The position numbers and the translations under genes were made by a program. From an uncultured Acetobacteraceae bacterium (GTDB lineage Bacteria; Pseudomonadota; Alphaproteobacteria; Acetobacterales; Acetobacteraceae), in assembly GCA_903918315.1 (NCBI GenBank), contig CAIXEA010000069.1, positions 1-39,381 on the forward strand: a DNA stretch of 39,381 nucleotides. Reading direction: 5' to 3'. The notes below the pieces were generated by a model that made no database searches, had not been told where the DNA came from, and saw nothing but the letters and a program-made list of their open reading frames with translations. How positions within the stretch are numbered: position 1 is the first letter of the stretch; every line of letters starts with the position of its first letter. Of this stretch, positions 17,592 to 24,807 are shown one piece after another.

Positions 17592-18797
17592 ATGGCCACC
17601 GCCTCGCGTCAGCGACACATATTTGCATTATGCCTGTGTCTGGTGGCCGCCTGCGTGCTGTCCATCACCCCTGCCCGCGCCCAGATCGGGTCCGCCCGCT
17701 ACAGCTCCATCGTCGTCGACGCCAATACCGGCAAAGTGCTCGAGTCGGTGAATGCCGACGCCATGCGCTACCCCGCCAGCCTCACCAAACTCATGACTCT
17801 CTACATGACGTTCGAGGCCCTGCGCGATCGGCGGATCACGCTGGAGCAGAACGTCCCGGTCTCCGCCCATGCCGCAAGCGCATCGCCCACGAAACTCGGG
17901 CTGGTGCCAGGGACCCGCATTACCGTGGAGCAGGCGATCCTCGGCCTGGTCACCAAGTCCGCTAATGACGCCGCCGCGGCGCTGGGCGAAATGCTCGGCG
18001 GCTCGGAAGACCGGTTCGCCCAGATGATGACGCTGCGCGCCCGCGGCCTGGGCATGAGCCGGACGACCTTCATGAATGCCTCCGGCCTGCCGGATGCCGA
18101 ACAACTCACCACCGCCCGCGACCTCGCGGTGCTGGCGCGCCATCTGCTCAGCGATTTCCCCGGTTACTACCGCTATTTCTCGGCCCCGCATTTCGTCTGG
18201 CAGCGCCGGACGATCTATAATCACGACCATCTGCTGCGCACCTACCCCGGCGCGGACGGCATGAAGACGGGCTTCACCGACACGTCCGGCTATAATCTGG
18301 TCACCAGCGCGGTGCGTGGCGGCGTCCGCCTCGTCGGCGTCGTGCTCGGCGCCGCGTCAAATGGGGAACGCGACCAGCACATGATCAACCTGCTGGATCA
18401 AAGCTACGCCCAGCTGGATATTCCGAATGAGCGCGGGGTGATGCGCGTTGCGAACCACGCGATCATCAATGCCGCCCAGGCGGCCCCCTCGGACCGGGCA
18501 CCGGTCGAGGCGGCGCCACTGAACCGGGGCCGGGTCTCCAACATCGTCTGGGGCATCCAGGCGGGGACCTACCCGACCGAGAAATCCGCCCGCACCGCTG
18601 CCGCCAGCGCCCGCCGGCTGGCCGATGGGGGTGATATCCGTGTCGAACCAACAACGGTGAAGCATAAGCCGGCCTGGCGGGCGCAGGTCATGGGCCTGAC
18701 CCAGGCCGATGCACAGAGCGCCTGCACCGCGCTGATCCGGCACAAGACGCCTTGCATGGTGCTGCGGGTGGATCCCCGCCAGATCGCCAGCCGGTAG
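17592..18797 (+). CDS. D-alanyl-D-alanine carboxypeptidase (PBP5/DacF type) with SPOR-like tail
   Basis: Periplasmic, low-molecular-weight penicillin-binding protein that trims the terminal D-Ala of peptidoglycan stem peptides. The 401-residue precursor has a signal peptide ending ARA at about residue 30. The three active-site motifs are all present: SLTK (63-66), SAN (123-125) and KTG (225-227). After an Ala/Pro-rich linker (about 290-310), the C-terminal 80 residues (WGIQAGTYPTEKSARTAA...) look like a SPOR domain, which binds denuded glycan strands at the division site. The ATG has GAGGGA upstream. A near-consensus promoter for the next operon begins ten bases after the stop. Confidence 0.92.
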   Translation: MATASRQRHIFALCLCLVAACVLSITPARAQIGSARYSSIVVDANTGKVLESVNADAMRYPASLTKLMTLYMTFEALRDRRITLEQNVPVSAHAASASPTKLGLVPGTRITVEQAILGLVTKSANDAAAALGEMLGGSEDRFAQMMTLRARGLGMSRTTFMNASGLPDAEQLTTARDLAVLARHLLSDFPGYYRYFSAPHFVWQRRTIYNHDHLLRTYPGADGMKTGFTDTSGYNLVTSAVRGGVRLVGVVLGAASNGERDQHMINLLDQSYAQLDIPNERGVMRVANHAIINAAQAAPSDRAPVEAAPLNRGRVSNIVWGIQAGTYPTEKSARTAAASARRLADGGDIRVEPTTVKHKPAWRAQVMGLTQADAQSACTALIRHKTPCMVLRVDPRQIASR

Positions 18798-18807
18798 CGT
18801 TTCGAAC

Positions 18808-18836
18808 TTGCCTTGTCGGGCCGGTGGAAGTATAAT
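18808..18836 (+). promoter_or_regulatory. near-consensus sigma-70 promoter
   Basis: TTGCCT (18808-18813) and a perfect TATAAT (18831-18836) are separated by 17 bases, with no competing gene in the interval. It would start transcription about 45-50 bases before the first DUF2946-like gene and probably drives the TonB operon. Such a good -10 box is unusual for this GC-rich region. Confidence 0.6.
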
Positions 18837-18890
18837 CCCCGACAGACGGAACGTAAGTCCCACCACCGCCGGCCAATCAGATTATATGTC

Positions 18891-19232
18891 ATGCTGCTCG
18901 CTCTGGCATGCATGCTGGTGCGTGCAGTGCTGCCAATGCCGGCGGAGGCGCATGCCCGCGCGGGGCTGAGTCCGGAGCTGCGGCTGCTGGGCGCGGCGCT
19001 CTGCCACGACGGGGACGCCCCCGGTGATTCCGCGCCGAACCACGCGTTGGCGTGCGACCATTGTCCGGTTTGTTCCGTCGCGCCGCACATGCCCATTGGC
19101 CCGTTAGCCGCGATCATGCATCCCCCGCTGCCGGCCTCAACGCTGCTTATGCGGCCGATGGTGGGCAATAGCCTGGCCCCGCGGGCCCCGCCGGGGCAGG
19201 CCCACCCGCCCCGAGCACCGCCCATCCTCTGA
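18891..19232 (+). CDS. DUF2946-like small exported Cys-motif protein
   Basis: A 113-residue protein starting MLLALACMLVRAVLPMPAEA, a signal peptide or N-terminal anchor. It carries a CDHCPVC cluster at about residues 55-61 in the exported part, then a Pro-rich tail. A hydrophobic leader plus a central C-x-x-C type motif is the pattern of DUF2946 proteins, often found beside TonB receptors and copper genes. Metal binding by the Cys/His cluster is inferred. The frame stays open upstream to 18813, but the ATG at 18891 places the hydrophobic leader correctly. It is the first gene after a strong promoter. Confidence 0.6.
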   Translation: MLLALACMLVRAVLPMPAEAHARAGLSPELRLLGAALCHDGDAPGDSAPNHALACDHCPVCSVAPHMPIGPLAAIMHPPLPASTLLMRPMVGNSLAPRAPPGQAHPPRAPPIL

Positions 19233-19361
19233 ATCGTCGACATTCGCGCGGGCGGCTGCCGTCGTGTGGCCGCTCGTCTTGGTGATTCAGGACAGGCTTA
19301 CGCTGTGACGATGACCTCATTTGGTTTGCTGTGCCGAGGCGCGAGGGAGCGGCTCCGGGTA

Positions 19362-19754
19362 ATGACGGGATCGCGAGCCGGTGCCGGCCTGCGCCGATTC
19401 GTCGCGGCGGCCTGCATTCTCGGTTTCATGTTGCAGGCCCTGACGCCACCTGGGCATCAGCCTATGCAAACCTCCGCGATTGAGCGTTTGCTCGATCAAG
19501 CGGCGGTGCTTTGCACCGCGGATGGCGGGTCCACACATCCATTGCCATTGACCGGCGGGGATCCGGCCCCGGCGTCCGTGCCCTGTGTGATGTGCCAGAT
19601 CGCGGCCTTTGCCGCTGTTGTACCGCCCTCCGGGCCTACGCCATCCGCCCGAGTACCGGTCCCCGTAGAATATACCATCGGGCCGCGAGGGCCATGGCAT
19701 CTGCCGCGGCCATTCCTGACGGCATTTCCACGCGGCCCGCCGATAACTGTTTGA
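19362..19754 (+). CDS. second DUF2946-like small exported protein
   Basis: About 130 residues. A basic n-region (MTGSRAGAGLRRF) is followed by a hydrophobic core (VAAACILGFMLQAL), then a polar region and a CVMCQIAAFAAV motif, and a Pro/Arg-rich tail. The organisation repeats that of the preceding gene, so the two may be diverged paralogues. The start is uncertain: ATG at 19362 gives the best signal peptide, ATG at 19311 or GTG at 19266 would lengthen it, and none has a strong ribosome site. Its stop codon lies within the left arm of an RNA hairpin that reaches the ribosome site of the next gene. Confidence 0.55.
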   Translation: MTGSRAGAGLRRFVAAACILGFMLQALTPPGHQPMQTSAIERLLDQAAVLCTADGGSTHPLPLTGGDPAPASVPCVMCQIAAFAAVVPPSGPTPSARVPVPVEYTIGPRGPWHLPRPFLTAFPRGPPITV

Positions 19755-19824
19755 CCCCAATGGCTACCCGCGCGTCCGGCCCGCATGGGCGTGGCCGGAC
19801 GCGCGCAGTGCAAGTGTCAAACAG
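19747..19824 (+). promoter_or_regulatory. nested intercistronic hairpin overlapping a stop codon and a ribosome site
   Basis: An inner 13-bp stem (19769-19781 with 19793-19805) is enclosed by outer 9-bp arms CTGTTTGAC (19747-19755) and GTCAAACAG (19816-19824). The outer left arm contains the TGA stop of the preceding gene. The right arm covers the first bases of the AGGAG (19823-19827) that serves the YcnI-family gene. The structure could couple or limit translation; this is inference. Confidence 0.5.
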
Positions 19825-19833
19825 GAGTTCACT

Positions 19834-20364
19834 ATGTCTCACATACGCGCGCTCAGCGCCTCGGCCCTACTGGGCCTGTTGCCAGCCGTTTTCACGCCGG
19901 CCCAGGCGCATCCTCTGGCCTATCCCGATACCGGGGTCGCTGGCGACCATTTTCAGACGGCGCTTAACGTCTCTCACGGCTGCGATGGCTCACCGACAGT
20001 CGCCATCACCTTGAAGGTGCCGCCAAGCGTGATCCTGATCAAGCCGCAGTGGAAGGCGGGTTGGGCCCTCACGATCAAGAAAGGCAAGTTGGAAACCCCG
20101 CGCGCGGGGCTCCATGGCAAATCCATTACCGAGCGGGTGGAAGAGATCACCTGGCGGGGCGGGCCGCTGCCGAACGAGGCCTATGACACCTTTGGGCTGC
20201 AGCTGGTGCTGCCGGATACGCCTGGGGAGACGCTGTGGCTGCCGATCATCCAGGAATGTCAGAAAGGCGCGCACCGCTGGCTCGACATTCCTGGGCCTGG
20301 GCAAGCCTGGCGCGGCATGCACGCCCCGCCGCCCTTCGTGAAAATCGTCCCCAAGGCGCCCTGA
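19834..20364 (+). CDS. YcnI/DUF1775 domain protein, exported
   Basis: A 176-residue precursor with a signal peptide (MSHIRALSASALLGLLPAVF, cleavage likely after AQA near residue 25), which leaves His as the first mature residue. The core has the YcnI/DUF1775 pattern: FQTALNVSHGCDGSPTVAITLKVP, then KPQWKAGWALTIKKG and ITWRGGPLPNEAYDTFGLQL. Known YcnI binds Cu(II) through its N-terminal His in a monohistidine brace, so the mature His here is consistent with copper binding in the periplasm. AGGAG sits seven bases before the ATG, partly inside an RNA hairpin. The neighbouring TonB receptor suggests the protein handles metal during uptake. Confidence 0.8.
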   Translation: MSHIRALSASALLGLLPAVFTPAQAHPLAYPDTGVAGDHFQTALNVSHGCDGSPTVAITLKVPPSVILIKPQWKAGWALTIKKGKLETPRAGLHGKSITERVEEITWRGGPLPNEAYDTFGLQLVLPDTPGETLWLPIIQECQKGAHRWLDIPGPGQAWRGMHAPPPFVKIVPKAP

Positions 20365-20425
20365 GTCGCCTTTTACGTACCCCTTGCATACGCGCCCTCC
20401 CCGGATGGCGCGCAGGAGATCCCCT

Positions 20426-22729
20426 ATGTTCCGTTCCAATCTTCTTGGCGGCACCACGCTCGCCATGCTCACTCTTACCGCCGCCACGCATGCGGAGGAT
20501 GCCACACCGATTGCCTTGCCGCCGGTCAGTGTGACGGCGCCGACGGCGGCGGTCTTGTTTCCGCAGACCGTTACGTCGCCCCGGCTGCAAAATTCGTCGA
20601 TTCCATCGACGACCGAGAGCCTTACGGCGGCCCGCATCGAGGAGACAGTCAATATCCTCGACCCCGAAGATGCGGTGAAATACCTGCCCAGCATCTTCGT
20701 GCGTAAACGCAATTACGGCGATACGCAGCCGACTTTGGCGACACGCACCTGGGGCGTGAATTCAAGCGCGCGCAGCCTAGTCTTCGTCGACGACGTGCCG
20801 ATCTCGGCGTTGATCTCCAACAACAATACCACCGGGGCGCCGCGCTGGGGTATGGTCTCCCCGTCGCAAATCCAGGGCATCGACATGCTCTATGGGCCTT
20901 TCGCGGCGGAATATCCGGGCAATTCGATGGGCGGCGTGTTGCTGATCACCACCCGCATGCCGGAGCAATTCCAGGCCACGGCGTCGCAGACGCAGGCGCT
21001 GCAGACGTTCGATTACTACAAGACCCATAAAACCTTCCCGACCTCTCAGTCGGAGGCCACGGTGGGCGGCAAAGAGGGCAAGGTGTCATGGTTCCTGAGC
21101 GGCAGCGCCCAGGACAGCTATAGCCAGCCGCTGTCCTTTATCACCAACGGAACCGCGCCGGCGGGGACCACGGGCACCATCCCGGCCTTGAGCAAAGTGG
21201 GCGCGGTGGCGAATGTCGTCGGTGCCGGCGGCTTGCTGCACACCCGCATGTATAATGGCACGGGCAAGGTGGCGGTCGATCTGAACGACTGGCTGCGCGC
21301 CACCTATACGCTGGGGATCTGGGACGGCAACACCCAGTCCAGGCCGCAAACCTATCTGTCGGATGCGTCGGGCAACCCGACCTACGGTGGGGTCGCGGGC
21401 TTTGGCAGCAATACCTATTCGTGGCTGGAGACGCATATGATGAATGCGTTCTCCCTTAAGTCCGACACCAAGAGTAATTGGGATGGCGAGTTCGTCGTGA
21501 CCCGCTACGACTACCTGACGGATATCCAGAGAAGCTCCGCCGGTGCTCTGGCCACAGGGATCGGCGTGAAGACCAACGGGTTCATCGCTCGCCTCGATGG
21601 GACCAGCTGGACCACGCTGGATCTGAAGGGCATCTGGCGGCCAACCGGACCTTCCGGGGCACATGAGGTCAGCTTTGGCTTCCATCGCGACGAATACACG
21701 CTGAATAATCCCACTTATAACGCCCCGGACTGGCAGGCATCGCCGGAGAATGGCAACGGCACGATGGTCACTGATGGCCAGGGCAAGACCCAGACCTATG
21801 CTGTCTGGGCGCAGGAAGCCTGGAAATTCGCCCCCGGCTTTAAGCTCACCCTCGGTGGGCGGCTCGAGCAGTGGTCGGCCCGCGACGGCTTCGTGCTGGG
21901 CACGGCCAGCACCGGAACCGTGTTCTCCGGCGCGCAGCCGAAGCAGAATGCGACGACCTTTTCCCCCAAAGCGTCGCTGGCCTGGAAGTTCGCCCCGGAC
22001 TGGACCGCGACCGCGTCTTATGGCCAGGCGCACCGCTTTCCGACGGTGTCCGAGCTGTACCAGATTGTCGCCACCGGCAGCACCTTCACCATCCCCAATC
22101 CCAATCTGACGCCGGAGACGGTCAATACCGGCGAATTCGCGATTGAGCGCGAGACCGAGAATACCCGCGTGCGCCTGTCGATCTTCGAGGAAGACACCAC
22201 CAACGCGCTCGTACAGCAGACCAATCTGTTGAACGGGGCTTTTGCCTCGACCTGGCAAAATGTCGGGCACACCCGCAATCGCGGGGTGGAACTCGTCACT
22301 CAGGCCAAAATCCCCTGGGTGCCGGGCCTGGAAGTGTCCAACAGCGTGACGTTCGTGGATTCCCGGATTGTCTCCGACCCGACCTTCAAGGCCGCGACCG
22401 GGACGACGGCGACGGGGAAGCATGTGCCCTATGTGCCCGATTGGCGCGATACGGTGCAGGTGACCTACCGGCCGACCGAGGAACTCGCGATTTCGGCGGC
22501 GGCGCGGTACAACGGGAAGATGTATTCGACGCTGGACAACAGCGATTCAGTGTCCCACGTAATGGGCAGTTTCGATAAATTCTTCGTTGTCGATGCGCAT
22601 GTCCGCTATCAGCTGTCCAACTATCTGGTGGTCAACGCGGGTATCGATAATCTCTTCAACGAGAAGTATTTCGAATTCCACCCGTTCCCTGGCCGCACCT
22701 ATCTGGCCAATCTGAAGCTGCGGTTCTGA
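20426..22729 (+). CDS. TonB-dependent outer-membrane receptor
   Basis: A 767-residue outer-membrane gated channel. It has a signal peptide (MFRSNLLGGTTLAMLTLTAA...), a possible TonB box at PPVSVTAP, and a plug domain with AVKYLPSIFVRKRNYGD, DDVPISALI and YGPFAAEYPGNSMGGVLLITTR. The long beta-barrel ends in aromatic Phe (LKLRF), as barrel proteins do. The start is set by AGGAGA just before the ATG at 20426. I see no Cys in the mature protein, so the Cys/Met copper site of OprC is absent. The cargo is therefore unknown; copper is suggested only by neighbouring YcnI and DUF2946-like genes. exbB, exbD and tonB follow immediately. Confidence 0.93.
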   Translation: MFRSNLLGGTTLAMLTLTAATHAEDATPIALPPVSVTAPTAAVLFPQTVTSPRLQNSSIPSTTESLTAARIEETVNILDPEDAVKYLPSIFVRKRNYGDTQPTLATRTWGVNSSARSLVFVDDVPISALISNNNTTGAPRWGMVSPSQIQGIDMLYGPFAAEYPGNSMGGVLLITTRMPEQFQATASQTQALQTFDYYKTHKTFPTSQSEATVGGKEGKVSWFLSGSAQDSYSQPLSFITNGTAPAGTTGTIPALSKVGAVANVVGAGGLLHTRMYNGTGKVAVDLNDWLRATYTLGIWDGNTQSRPQTYLSDASGNPTYGGVAGFGSNTYSWLETHMMNAFSLKSDTKSNWDGEFVVTRYDYLTDIQRSSAGALATGIGVKTNGFIARLDGTSWTTLDLKGIWRPTGPSGAHEVSFGFHRDEYTLNNPTYNAPDWQASPENGNGTMVTDGQGKTQTYAVWAQEAWKFAPGFKLTLGGRLEQWSARDGFVLGTASTGTVFSGAQPKQNATTFSPKASLAWKFAPDWTATASYGQAHRFPTVSELYQIVATGSTFTIPNPNLTPETVNTGEFAIERETENTRVRLSIFEEDTTNALVQQTNLLNGAFASTWQNVGHTRNRGVELVTQAKIPWVPGLEVSNSVTFVDSRIVSDPTFKAATGTTATGKHVPYVPDWRDTVQVTYRPTEELAISAAARYNGKMYSTLDNSDSVSHVMGSFDKFFVVDAHVRYQLSNYLVVNAGIDNLFNEKYFEFHPFPGRTYLANLKLRF

Positions 22730-22746
22730 TCGTCCCCGCATGATCG

Positions 22747-22775
22747 GTCCCGGCCGCGCGGCCGGGACGGGTTTT
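22747..22775 (+). terminator. terminator-like palindrome between receptor and exbB
   Basis: A perfect 22-base palindrome (22747-22768; each arm starts GTCCCGGCCG) is followed by GG, G and TTTT up to 22775. It lies 18 bases after the receptor stop and about 20 before the exbB start. It may attenuate transcription so that the receptor is made in excess of ExbB-ExbD-TonB. Confidence 0.5.
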
Positions 22776-22796
22776 CATCTGGCAGGAAAGACCGGC

Positions 22797-23630
22797 ATGG
22801 AAATGACAAGACTCCCGGCGCGCCGTCCGGCGTCGGCCTTCGCGTGGATCGTGATGGCCCCCTGGATCGGGTGCGGGCCCGGCACCGCCCGGGCCGAGGC
22901 CCCGGCTGGCGCGATCGCCGCGGCACTGCTGCCGCCTGATCTGTCGCCCTGGTCGATGTTTCTCAACGCCGACATCGTGGTGAAGGGCGTCATGGTGGGG
23001 CTGGCTTTGGCATCGGTCATCACGTGGACGGTATGGCTGGCCAAAAGCATCGAGTTATTCGCCGCCCGGCGGCGGCTGCGGCGGCATCTGCTGGCTATCG
23101 GCGGCGCGCGGCGTCTGGCCGACGCGGCGCGGGATGTGGGGCGGGATGAACCGGGCGCCGGTTCGGCGCTGCTGCGCGCGGCGGCGGAGGAATGGCACCA
23201 ATCCTCCGACGCTCTGCATGATCGGGACGGGCTGAAAGAGCGCATCGCCTCTCGTCTCGACCGGATCGAGGCCGCGGCGGGGCGGCAGATGACCCGGGGC
23301 ACCGGGGTTCTGGCCACGATCGGGGCCACGGCCCCGTTCGTTGGGTTGTTCGGCACCGTTTGGGGCATCATGAACAGCTTCATCGGCATTTCGCAGTCGC
23401 ATACCACCAACCTCGCGGTGGTCGCGCCGGGCATCGCCGAGGCCTTGCTCGCCACCGCCTGTGGTCTGATCGCGGCGATCCCGGCGGTGGTGATCTATAA
23501 TCATTTCGCGCGGCAGGTCGCGGCTTTCAAAGCGCTGTTGGGGGATACTGCGGCGGCGGTGCTGCGGCTGGTGTCGCGCGATCTCAGCCGAGGTGAATCC
23601 GCTGACAGTTCCGGACCGGAGGCCGCGTAA
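22797..23630 (+). CDS. exbB: ExbB / TolQ-type proton channel protein
   Basis: Inner-membrane component of the motor that energises TonB. From the ATG at 22797 (277 aa) there is an N-terminal signal-like segment ending near ARAEA. A first transmembrane helix (VVKGVMVGLALASVITWTVW) follows, then a long cytoplasmic helical loop, and two more helices with GTGVLATIGATAPFVGLFGTVWGIMNSF and GIAEALLATACGLIAAIPAVV, the MotA/TolQ/ExbB core. The extended N-terminus is typical of ExbB rather than TolQ. The start is chosen for AGGAAAG upstream. exbD begins two bases after the stop. Confidence 0.92.
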   Translation: MEMTRLPARRPASAFAWIVMAPWIGCGPGTARAEAPAGAIAAALLPPDLSPWSMFLNADIVVKGVMVGLALASVITWTVWLAKSIELFAARRRLRRHLLAIGGARRLADAARDVGRDEPGAGSALLRAAAEEWHQSSDALHDRDGLKERIASRLDRIEAAAGRQMTRGTGVLATIGATAPFVGLFGTVWGIMNSFIGISQSHTTNLAVVAPGIAEALLATACGLIAAIPAVVIYNHFARQVAAFKALLGDTAAAVLRLVSRDLSRGESADSSGPEAA

Positions 23631-23632
23631 CC

Positions 23633-24058
23633 ATGGCCATGACACCGCGGCGGAGCAGCGAGGAGCTGGAGGAAACCCACGAGATCAACGTCACGCCGTT
23701 CATCGACGTGATGCTGGTCCTGCTGATCATCTTCATGGTGGCGGCACCGTTGGCCACGGTCGATGTCGCGGTCGATCTGCCGGCTTCTACCGCGCAAAGG
23801 CAGGCCCGGCCGGACCGGCCGATCTTTCTGATGATCAAGGCGGATCGGACTCTGGCGCTGGGGGATGCACTGGTGAGCGTGGAGGCGCTGCCGGGGGCGT
23901 TGGAGCTGGCCTCGGCGGGTGACAAGGATCAGCGCGTGTTTCTACGGGCGGACAAAACCGTGGATTACGACACGCTGATACAGGCGATGAATGTGCTGCG
24001 CGACGCTGGTTATCTCAAAATCGCCCTCGTCGGCCTTGATCGCGGCAGTGCGCCATGA
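23633..24058 (+). CDS. exbD: ExbD biopolymer transport protein
   Basis: Partner of ExbB in the proton-driven TonB motor. The 141-residue protein has a short cytoplasmic N-terminus and a single transmembrane helix, INVTPFIDVMLVLLIIFMV. The helix contains the essential Asp (about D25). A periplasmic domain ends with VDYDTLIQAMNVLRDAGYLKIALVG. The family signature NVTPFIDVMLVLL is complete. Its stop overlaps the tonB start by four bases (ATGA), so translation is coupled. Confidence 0.95.
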   Translation: MAMTPRRSSEELEETHEINVTPFIDVMLVLLIIFMVAAPLATVDVAVDLPASTAQRQARPDRPIFLMIKADRTLALGDALVSVEALPGALELASAGDKDQRVFLRADKTVDYDTLIQAMNVLRDAGYLKIALVGLDRGSAP

Positions 24059-24807
24059 GCAGTTCAGCATCCACCATCAGGGAGCCAGCGGTAGAGCGGA
24101 TCAGCCCGGCGCTTTGGGGGGGTTGTCTGGCTTTGATGCTGGGGCTGCATGCCGCGGTGGCCTGGCTGGCATTGCCGCGCGTGGTGCCGCATGCGGCTGA
24201 CAGTCCGGCGCCGCCGGCGGTGATGATCGACCTGACGCCCGAGGCCCCGGCGGAACCTGAGCCGCCGCCGCCGCAACCGCCGCCGCCGGAACCCGAGCCG
24301 CCCCCGCCCGAACCAGCCTCGCTGGATTTGCCGCCGCCAGAGCCACCGCCCACTCCGCCGCCGGTGCCGGCCGCAGCGGTGCCCTTGCCGATACCTCCGC
24401 CCCCGCCGCCCCGGCCGGTCGTCCGGCGGGAGGCGCCGCCGCGTGCCCCGGATCGCCCGACGGCCTCGGAGGCTGCGCCCGTGCCGGCCGCTGCTCCGGC
24501 GCCGGCACCGGCAAGCAATGCAGTGCCCGCCTGGCAGAGCGTGCTGATGGCGCGGCTACAGGCGGCAAAGCGCTACCCGAGCGCGGCACGGTTCGACCGC
24601 CAGCAGGGTGTCGCTTATGTGCGGGTGGCATTGAACCGCGACGGCGGCGTGTTATCGGCCGCGATTCAGCGGAGCTCCGGCTTTGCCGCGCTTGATGACG
24701 AGACGCTGGCGCTGGTGCAGCGTGTGTCCCCCATGCCGGCCCCGCCGCCTGAGCTTACGGGCGACCCCGTGGTGCTGGTGATACCCGTGCATTTTTCGCT
24801 GCGGTGA
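24055..24807 (+). CDS. tonB: TonB energy-transducing protein
   Basis: A 250-residue periplasm-spanning protein that transmits force from ExbBD to outer-membrane receptors. It has one N-terminal transmembrane helix (about 20-42, LWGGCLALMLGLHAAVAWLAL). A very Pro-rich spacer of PP, EPEPPPPEP type repeats covers about residues 60-125, and an Ala/Pro linker follows. The C-terminal TonB domain (about 158-250) includes LQAAKRYPSAARFDRQQGVAYVRV and the SSGFAALDDETLALVQR pattern. It overlaps exbD by four bases and is the last gene of the operon. A dedicated tonB beside one receptor suggests it serves that receptor. Confidence 0.93.
   Translation: MSSSASTIREPAVERISPALWGGCLALMLGLHAAVAWLALPRVVPHAADSPAPPAVMIDLTPEAPAEPEPPPPQPPPPEPEPPPPEPASLDLPPPEPPPTPPPVPAAAVPLPIPPPPPPRPVVRREAPPRAPDRPTASEAAPVPAAAPAPAPASNAVPAWQSVLMARLQAAKRYPSAARFDRQQGVAYVRVALNRDGGVLSAAIQRSSGFAALDDETLALVQRVSPMPAPPPELTGDPVVLVIPVHFSLR

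Follow-up and report, generated by a model that had tools for sequence, protein, structure and literature searches.

The 39,381-nucleotide (nt) contig CAIXEA010000069.1 from an uncultured Acetobacteraceae bacterium (the window) carries a seven-gene operon that probably serves copper import during starvation. In the reading we favor, a PcuB-type TonB-dependent receptor and its partners would be controlled by two tandem CruR-like upstream open reading frames (uORFs), P1 and P2, whose products are predicted arrest peptides and on which a stalled ribosome would unmask the Shine–Dalgarno (SD) sequence of the next gene. A broader proposal, which we advance more tentatively and regard as nearly evenly balanced, is that CruR-type DUF2946 uORFs lying a short gap ahead of the next gene may as a class be copper-gated SD-unmasking switches, with the last codons and the stop codon serving as the anti-SD arm. 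The two in series here would then form a two-step gate, with translation of the import genes depending on two stalls. What is new is the direct tandem of CruR-like uORFs, together with a predicted helix that links the 3′ end of a uORF with the SD of the following gene. The operon thus comes to be seen as an importer of known type whose regulatory leader is unusual, instead of a new importer with secreted copper proteins.

The operon reads P1, P2, YcnI, TonB-dependent receptor, ExbB, ExbD, and TonB, with all seven open reading frames (ORFs) head to tail on the plus strand. The original prediction had described this same set from the DNA (two Cys-motif proteins, YcnI, a TonB receptor, and an ExbB-ExbD-TonB system), and it is borne out by the ORFs and by matches to Pfam and TIGR models. 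The main features are as follows.

18891..19232, plus strand: P1, CruR-like (DUF2946-like) uORF, 113 amino acids from ATG 18891 (PF11162, 18.8 bits; motif pair)
19228..19240, plus strand: 5′ arm of a possible SD-masking helix, the P1 end and stop, 13 pairs (G-U included) with 19279–19291
19279..19291, plus strand: 3′ arm overlapping AGGACAGG ahead of GTG 19305 (predicted fold)
19305..19754, plus strand: P2, second CruR-like uORF, from GTG 19305 or a later start (PF11162, 18.2 bits; motif pair)
19747..19755, plus strand: 5′ arm of a predicted SD-masking helix, the last P2 codons and UGA stop, nine perfect pairs with 19816–19824
19816..19824, plus strand: 3′ arm, running into the ycnI SD, CAGGAG (19822–19827) (predicted fold)
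19834..20364, plus strand: YcnI (DUF1775), predicted periplasmic Cu(II) binder (PF07987, 121.7 bits)
20426..22729, plus strand: PcuB-type TonB-dependent receptor (Pfam, synteny, predicted model and fold)
22797..23630, plus strand: ExbB (TIGR02797, 341 bits, over cut-off)
23633..24058, plus strand: ExbD (TIGR02803, 190.9 bits, over cut-off)
24055..24807, plus strand: TonB (TIGR01352, 66.1 bits, over cut-off)

CruR-like uORFs at the head of the operon

CruR peptides are encoded by DUF2946 uORFs with a CxxC motif and a C-terminal RAPP motif 45 residues apart, and copper is reported to relieve the arrest of the ribosome, after which Rho terminates transcription ahead of a TonB receptor gene (PMC9426467). 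The same paper lists TonB receptors and YcnI among syntenic genes, and describes stable predicted stem-loops in the CruR gene together with an unstructured C-rich stretch that is important for control. RAPP and RGPP peptides show enrichment ahead of genes for TonB receptors and YcnI, and in CruR arrest in vitro the two Pro codons sit in the P and A sites (PMC12992588).

By motif, P1 and P2, the first and second genes of the operon, belong to this RAPP/RGPP class. P1 contains CPVC (codons 19062–19073), followed after 46 residues by RAPP (codons 19212–19223), and ends in RAPP-IL. P2 contains CVMC (codons 19584–19595), then 45 residues and RGPP (codons 19731–19742), and ends in RGPP-ITV. Both spacings agree with that of CruR within one or two residues. 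Among 358 window ORFs of at least 60 amino acids in six frames, P1 and P2 alone combine CxxC with a C-terminal R[AG]PP at CruR spacing, and shuffling of their residues reproduced the motif pair in 7 of 200,000 trials for P1 and 1 of 200,000 for P2; the pair is thus unlikely by chance. Both align with nearly all of the PF11162 (DUF2946) model at scores under its curated cut-off of 23.7 bits, a shortfall that speaks against the favored reading, and we therefore call them CruR-like rather than curated DUF2946 members. In 32 of 96 uORFs (L035–L156), and likewise in P1, R[AG]PP appears a second time among the last 40 residues, with some uORFs ending RAPP-x-TGPP; a doubled arrest motif is possible in these.

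We infer from sequence alone how these parts could work together, including the stalling, the role of copper as the signal and the direction of its effect, the series logic, the polarity, and the metal. When copper is scarce, ribosomes would stall on the RAPP codons of P1 and the RGPP codons of P2, and each stalled ribosome would cover the last uORF codons. Left uncovered, these codons would pair as the 5′ arm of a hairpin that hides the SD ahead of the following gene. Stalling on P1 would permit translation of P2, stalling on P2 would permit translation of ycnI, and the translated mRNA would escape polarity. Binding of copper to the nascent CxxC would end the stall, whereupon the ribosome would leave at the stop codon, the SD would be masked again, and the operon would be off. 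Copper, probably chelated, would enter via the PcuB-type receptor, driven by the ExbB-ExbD-TonB motor encoded in the operon, and periplasmic YcnI would receive Cu(II).

Predicted helices between uORF ends and downstream SD sequences

At the P2-YcnI junction, the predicted fold has an energy of −59.7 kcal/mol (z −4.4), and none of 200 shuffles was as stable. At the P1-P2 junction, a helix is predicted only when GTG 19305 is taken as the P2 start. SD masking is likely for P2 and possible for P1.

More widely, uORF-to-next-gene junctions were scored in 110 loci, with the next gene required to have a start codon with an SD. A helix was called when the SD window formed at least four pairs with the end of the uORF, with the expectation taken from dinucleotide shuffles; all helices are folding predictions rather than structures. 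The first set held 81 junctions (79 from the loci and 2 from the window), including the same-contig pairs L102/L109 and L104/L110, all with gaps above 110 nt, and a chance motif ORF on the minus strand (L124). At gaps of 110 nt or less, 62 of 64 junctions have a helix versus 15.3 expected. The non-redundant count is 33 of 35, versus 35 of 129 control junctions between other genes of the same loci (Fisher p 2e-13), and outside Bradyrhizobium-type loci it is 24 of 25. A ribosome stalled on the RxPP codons is estimated to reach 21 nt from their first base, and 61 of 62 junctions place four or more pairs inside that distance.

A second set came from a Pfam model search of 299 genomes of the phylum, with the motif widened to xAPP, xGPP, or xSPP; 11 of its 30 loci were dropped (8 without an SD-bearing start and 3 without the motif). 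All 13 of its short-gap junctions, 10 from outside the window's class and 3 from within it, not de-duplicated, have a helix, versus 3.0 expected. Helix architecture is kept between lineages while the paired letters differ, those of Bradyrhizobium being UUCCUGAC with GUCAGGAA and those of the window CUGUUUGAC with GUCAAACAG.

A uORF end that doubles as the anti-SD arm would explain why RAPP or RGPP stands 2 to 3 codons before the stop, and why the stop of alphaproteobacterial uORFs is nearly always UGA, mostly within CCUGA. UGA terminates 80 of the 81 uORFs in the first set (47 of 48 non-redundant) versus 617 of 969 controls, and CCUGA is found in 65 of 81 (34 of 48 non-redundant) versus 84 of 969. 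If true, the proposal would reconcile two published models within one uORF family (CruR via Rho and CutF via SD shielding), would allow copper-controlled genes of many proteobacteria to be predicted by a rule read directly from DNA, and would demonstrate a two-step arrest-peptide gate.

Several results weigh against SD unmasking, in the window and for the class. The z score of the P2-YcnI fold depends on the stretch that is folded, ranging from −3.2 to −4.4 (−4.0 and −3.2 in the other stretches), and 5.4% of shuffles reach its pair count. The pair count at P1-P2, with GTG 19305, is reached by 5% of shuffles; that helix is absent with ATG 19311 or 19362 and is predicted in shorter stretches only, the longer stretch preferring another fold. 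In the survey, 16 of 95 motif ORFs were left unscored, nearly all lacking an SD-bearing start, and gaps above 110 nt show no excess of helices (2 of 17 versus 2.1 expected in the first set; 2 of 6 versus 1.0 in the second). Short-gap junctions overall are not unusually stable (median z −0.62), and a swap test gave a moderate result, wherein own pairings averaged −16.4 versus −13.0 kcal/mol and 10 of 32 beat 95% of swaps. The Bradyrhizobium helix is nearly invariant, two of its seven pairs having one sequence changed on both sides. The second set lacks the stop bias (UGA in 12 of 19, with CC preceding the stop in 7 of 19).

The rival explanation that fares best, although we judge it unlikely, is CruR action as published, wherein stalling only shields the transcript from Rho, copper brings about Rho termination before the transport genes, the SD helix is incidental, and the tandem amounts to two Rho attenuators. 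Rho dependence in vivo and in vitro is reported for Bordetella CruR (PMC9426467), a further point against SD unmasking, and C-over-G windows are present in the 3′ halves of P1 and P2. However, such windows occur elsewhere in the operon too (48 of 302), and a Rho-only model gives no reason to expect surplus helices at short gaps. Both modes could operate together, with a Rho component alongside SD masking, and a mixed arrangement of one uORF acting through Rho and the other through its SD helix is a further possibility. In Bordetella pertussis, CruR-bfrG(crtA)-bp2921 resembles the present operon in that a uORF with CxxC and RAPP about 45 residues apart heads a TonB receptor operon (PMC9426467, PMC12914433). 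That system has one uORF, a 162-nt gap, a Rho model, and a PepSY_TM gene next (PMC9426467, PMC12914433), whereas the window has two uORFs, shorter gaps at P2, YcnI along with ExbB-ExbD-TonB, and no PepSY gene.

A second alternative, which we consider improbable, borrows the logic of CutF from Rhodobacter capsulatus: the SD helix is the same, but copper causes the stall and turns the operon on. In CutF, a DUF2946-like uORF, a stem-loop hides the SD of cutO, the gene that follows, much as proposed for P2, and copper turns cutO on (PMC9973294). Its motif is CxxxC and its target a multicopper oxidase (PMC9973294), whereas P1 and P2 both carry the CruR features, CxxC and RAPP or RGPP. Moreover, an uptake operon induced by copper would be odd, given that pcu operons are reported to be induced by starvation (PMC12617631).

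For SD unmasking by a stalled ribosome, SecM-secA offers a precedent, in which the stalled ribosome opens a stem-loop hiding the SD of the next gene, with protein export rather than a metal as the signal (PMC10987492). SD shielding has thus been described for SecM (PMC10987492) and for CutF (PMC9973294, PMC10502375), and the CutF authors asked whether other members shield the SD and examined intergenic lengths (PMC9973294). No statement of SD shielding by CruR was found in the openly searchable full-text literature. The accessible text of PMC12992588 contains no mention of Shine-Dalgarno, stem-loop, hairpin, secondary structure, ribosome-binding site, or tandem.

A PcuB-type receptor in a copper context

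Judged by sequence and synteny, the receptor is of the PcuB type found in Bradyrhizobium pcuABCDE-like operons, and the importer type is therefore already described. The assignment uses the receptor of a pcu-type locus (L135) as proxy for the PcuB sequence of strain USDA 110. That locus has the pcu order, DUF2946-receptor-PCuAC-DUF1775 (YcnI)-CopC/CopD, and its receptor has one match in the window's genome, namely the present receptor (50% identity, 9.7e-221). According to PMC8424229 and PMC12617631, the pcuABCDE operon of Bradyrhizobium japonicum, like the window, joins a uORF, a PcuB-type receptor, and YcnI (PcuD) in one operon, in the same order as L135. The window differs in that PCuAC and CopCD are not part of the operon, YcnI precedes the receptor, a dedicated ExbB-ExbD-TonB system is present, and there are two uORFs. 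Copper or a copper chelate remains the best reading of the substrate, as was first suggested, while the idea that the importer was undescribed did not hold, since the same receptor type lies in Bradyrhizobium pcu-type operons, and TonB receptor and YcnI genes preceded by CruR-type uORFs have already been published (PMC9426467, PMC12992588).

The association of uORF and receptor is conserved. When genomes of named species were scanned by pattern, 48 receptor loci were obtained, mostly from Bradyrhizobium, with others in Gluconacetobacter diazotrophicus, Komagataeibacter saccharivorans, and metagenome-assembled genomes (MAGs) of other phyla. After two duplicate contigs were removed, 48 loci were counted as alphaproteobacterial, including the window and one locus titled Frankia (L116). 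A CruR-like uORF lies directly upstream of the receptor in 45 of these 48 (with CxxC in 43), so that the small ORFs do travel with the receptor when the proposed conservation check is run. Of the three loci without one, L107 ends at a contig edge, L100 has an ORF that ends in RGPP but contains only one Cys, and L106 has none that was found. Near the receptor, YcnI occurs in 34 of the 48 loci, ExbB in 5, and ExbD in 4. Within the order, 12 of 395 genomes, the window's own included, have a receptor relative at E ≤ 1e-100. Ten loci of other phyla (L140, L142, L144–L149, L154, and L155) lack a CruR-like uORF, YcnI, ExbB, and ExbD nearby. Receptors in MAGs of Gemmatimonadetes, Opitutae, and Verrucomicrobia (the L140–L155 group) are 43 to 47% identical, and their regulation and substrate may differ.

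The receptor contains no Cys, 13 His, and 13 Met, and scores 18.3 bits with the OprC model TIGR01778 against a cut-off of 472.45; on this evidence it is not OprC-type, as the lack of Cys had already suggested. An alignment of 27 of the 33 sequences tried (L131, L142, L144, L146, L148, and L155 were left out) retains His434 in 26 rows and His766 in all 27, and four more His in 21 to 25 rows. The CrtA (BfrG) receptor family is likewise without conserved Cys; it also has no conserved Met, has two conserved His, and is followed by a PepSY_TM gene in more than 75% of loci, and the ligand residues of CrtA are Y130, W265, E337, Q356, H358, and R395 (PMC12914433). Here no PepSY_TM gene follows the receptor, its place being taken by ExbB, ExbD, and TonB. 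CrtA was not among the listed structure matches of an AlphaFold2 receptor model (mean predicted local distance difference test score, 74.9), a listing that excludes nothing. A PDB sequence search with the receptor returned PhuR as its sole match.

YcnI scores 121.7 bits with PF07987, where the cut-off is 25. An N-terminal His and a Trp are the copper ligands of the YcnI family; as candidate counterparts here, His26 and Trp149, along with His48-Gly-Cys50, are present in 51 of 51 alignment rows, the solved Bacillus subtilis protein not being among them, and a PDB sequence search with YcnI gave no match, that solved protein included. YcnI was found in 51 of 299 family genomes, and in 45 of the 50 YcnI loci fetched, the motif pair is present in an ORF that shares its strand with YcnI.

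Two points tell against a dedicated copper importer. PCuAC and CopCD lie outside this operon in the genome, PCuAC on contig C116 and CopC and CopD on C64, and deletion of PcuB had no detectable phenotype (PMC12617631). An importer of an iron-siderophore, heme, or cobalamin, with neighbors from copper families by coincidence, is nevertheless hardly probable. Siderophore, heme, and B12 receptor models outscore the copper receptor model on this protein, all far under cut-off, and its fold matches are generic TonB receptors. However, there is no Rfam match and therefore no known cobalamin riboswitch, the neighbors in relatives such as L135 are PCuAC, YcnI, and CopCD, and a search for a Fur box at three mismatches gave no match, a weak test in that none was expected by chance.

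The least credible reading is the one first put forward for P1 and P2, that they are exported copper-binding carriers working with YcnI: both have CxxC motifs and N-terminal hydrophobic stretches (judged by eye only), and an early CutF paper proposed a chaperone role (as told in PMC9426467), but in 46 aligned relatives only two Cys and the final Pro-Pro are invariant, with one further Cys above 90%, and CruR and CutF were not detected as proteins (PMC9426467, PMC9973294), so that P1 and P2, with their CruR-like motifs and spacing, are better explained as regulatory arrest-peptide uORFs.

Tandem uORFs, cassette variation, and operon boundaries

Direct tandems of CruR-like uORFs look rare among the genomes searched. 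A uORF model, which matches P1 and P2 by construction in that both are in its alignment, has matches in 83 of 385 genomes of the class; two same-strand matches less than 1 kb apart occur only in the window and in G707, where a PCuAC gene sits between the two uORFs. In a family scan, wherein at least 151 of 299 genomes match, one other direct tandem is present among the matches listed. This tandem, in G231 (L157, 3891–4832), consists of DUF2946 ORFs of 25.5 and 23.3 bits followed by a TonB receptor and, farther along, by FecCD and binding-protein genes. In its second uORF the latter Cys of CxxC is gone, which may mark a degenerate or altered sensor.

In L156, G707, G954, G1055, and G1102, a single operon holds two uORFs that are split by a gene. 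The last three, from one genus, do not count as direct tandems, in that an ORF that looks PCuAC-like by eye lies between their same-strand DUF2946 matches, which are about 600 bp apart. The uORF pair apparent in L101 is probably an artifact, the first of its ORFs overlapping a longer frame.

The cassette varies among relatives. G164 (L035) has the order uORF-CopCD-uORF-YcnI-receptor-ExbB-ExbD-TonB, and G463 (L099), of the same genus, has one P1-like uORF, the receptor, ExbB, ExbD, and TonB, with no YcnI. ExbB follows the receptor in two Rhizobiales MAGs (L114 and L115). In L040, L045, and L069, from the same family, a uORF precedes a different, unrelated-looking TonB receptor and YcnI, so that receptors of two types share this copper setting.

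Upstream of the uORFs in the window lies one further feature.

18808..18836, plus strand: sigma-70-like promoter site TTGCCT-17-TATAAT (consensus match only)

This site agrees with the consensus at 10 of 12 positions, and two such sites occur across both strands of 18400–20500 versus a shuffle mean of 0.4. A single leading promoter had been predicted; the site is a pattern match and no proof of a promoter. The operon is preceded by a D-Ala-D-Ala carboxypeptidase gene (17592–18797) and followed by a convergent ribose-5-phosphate isomerase gene. The candidate P1 start, ATG 18891, is without a clear SD, and P2 may start at GTG 19305, with 19266, 19311, 19326, and 19362 as alternatives. The receptor probably starts at ATG 20426 and ExbB at ATG 22797, since each has an SD-like sequence upstream. 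Pfam scores are 165.2 bits for the receptor barrel, 46.3 for the plug, 110.6 for MotA_ExbB, 101.3 for ExbD, and 48.9 for TonB_C, and the ExbB and ExbD equivalog models and the TonB C-terminal model all exceed their cut-offs.

The window's genome contains a second CruR-like uORF locus, on contig C64 (L085, 6566–10759), with a score of 23.3 bits, just under cut-off. After the uORF come an ORF with no credible family assignment, CopC, a CopD that includes cytochrome c domains, and SCO1, likely a copper and oxidase-assembly operon. In five Bradyrhizobium loci (L123, L128, L130, L131, and L133), a further uORF lies about 2.8 kb upstream of the receptor's own; in L131 it is followed by CopC and CopD after an ORF that belongs to no known family.

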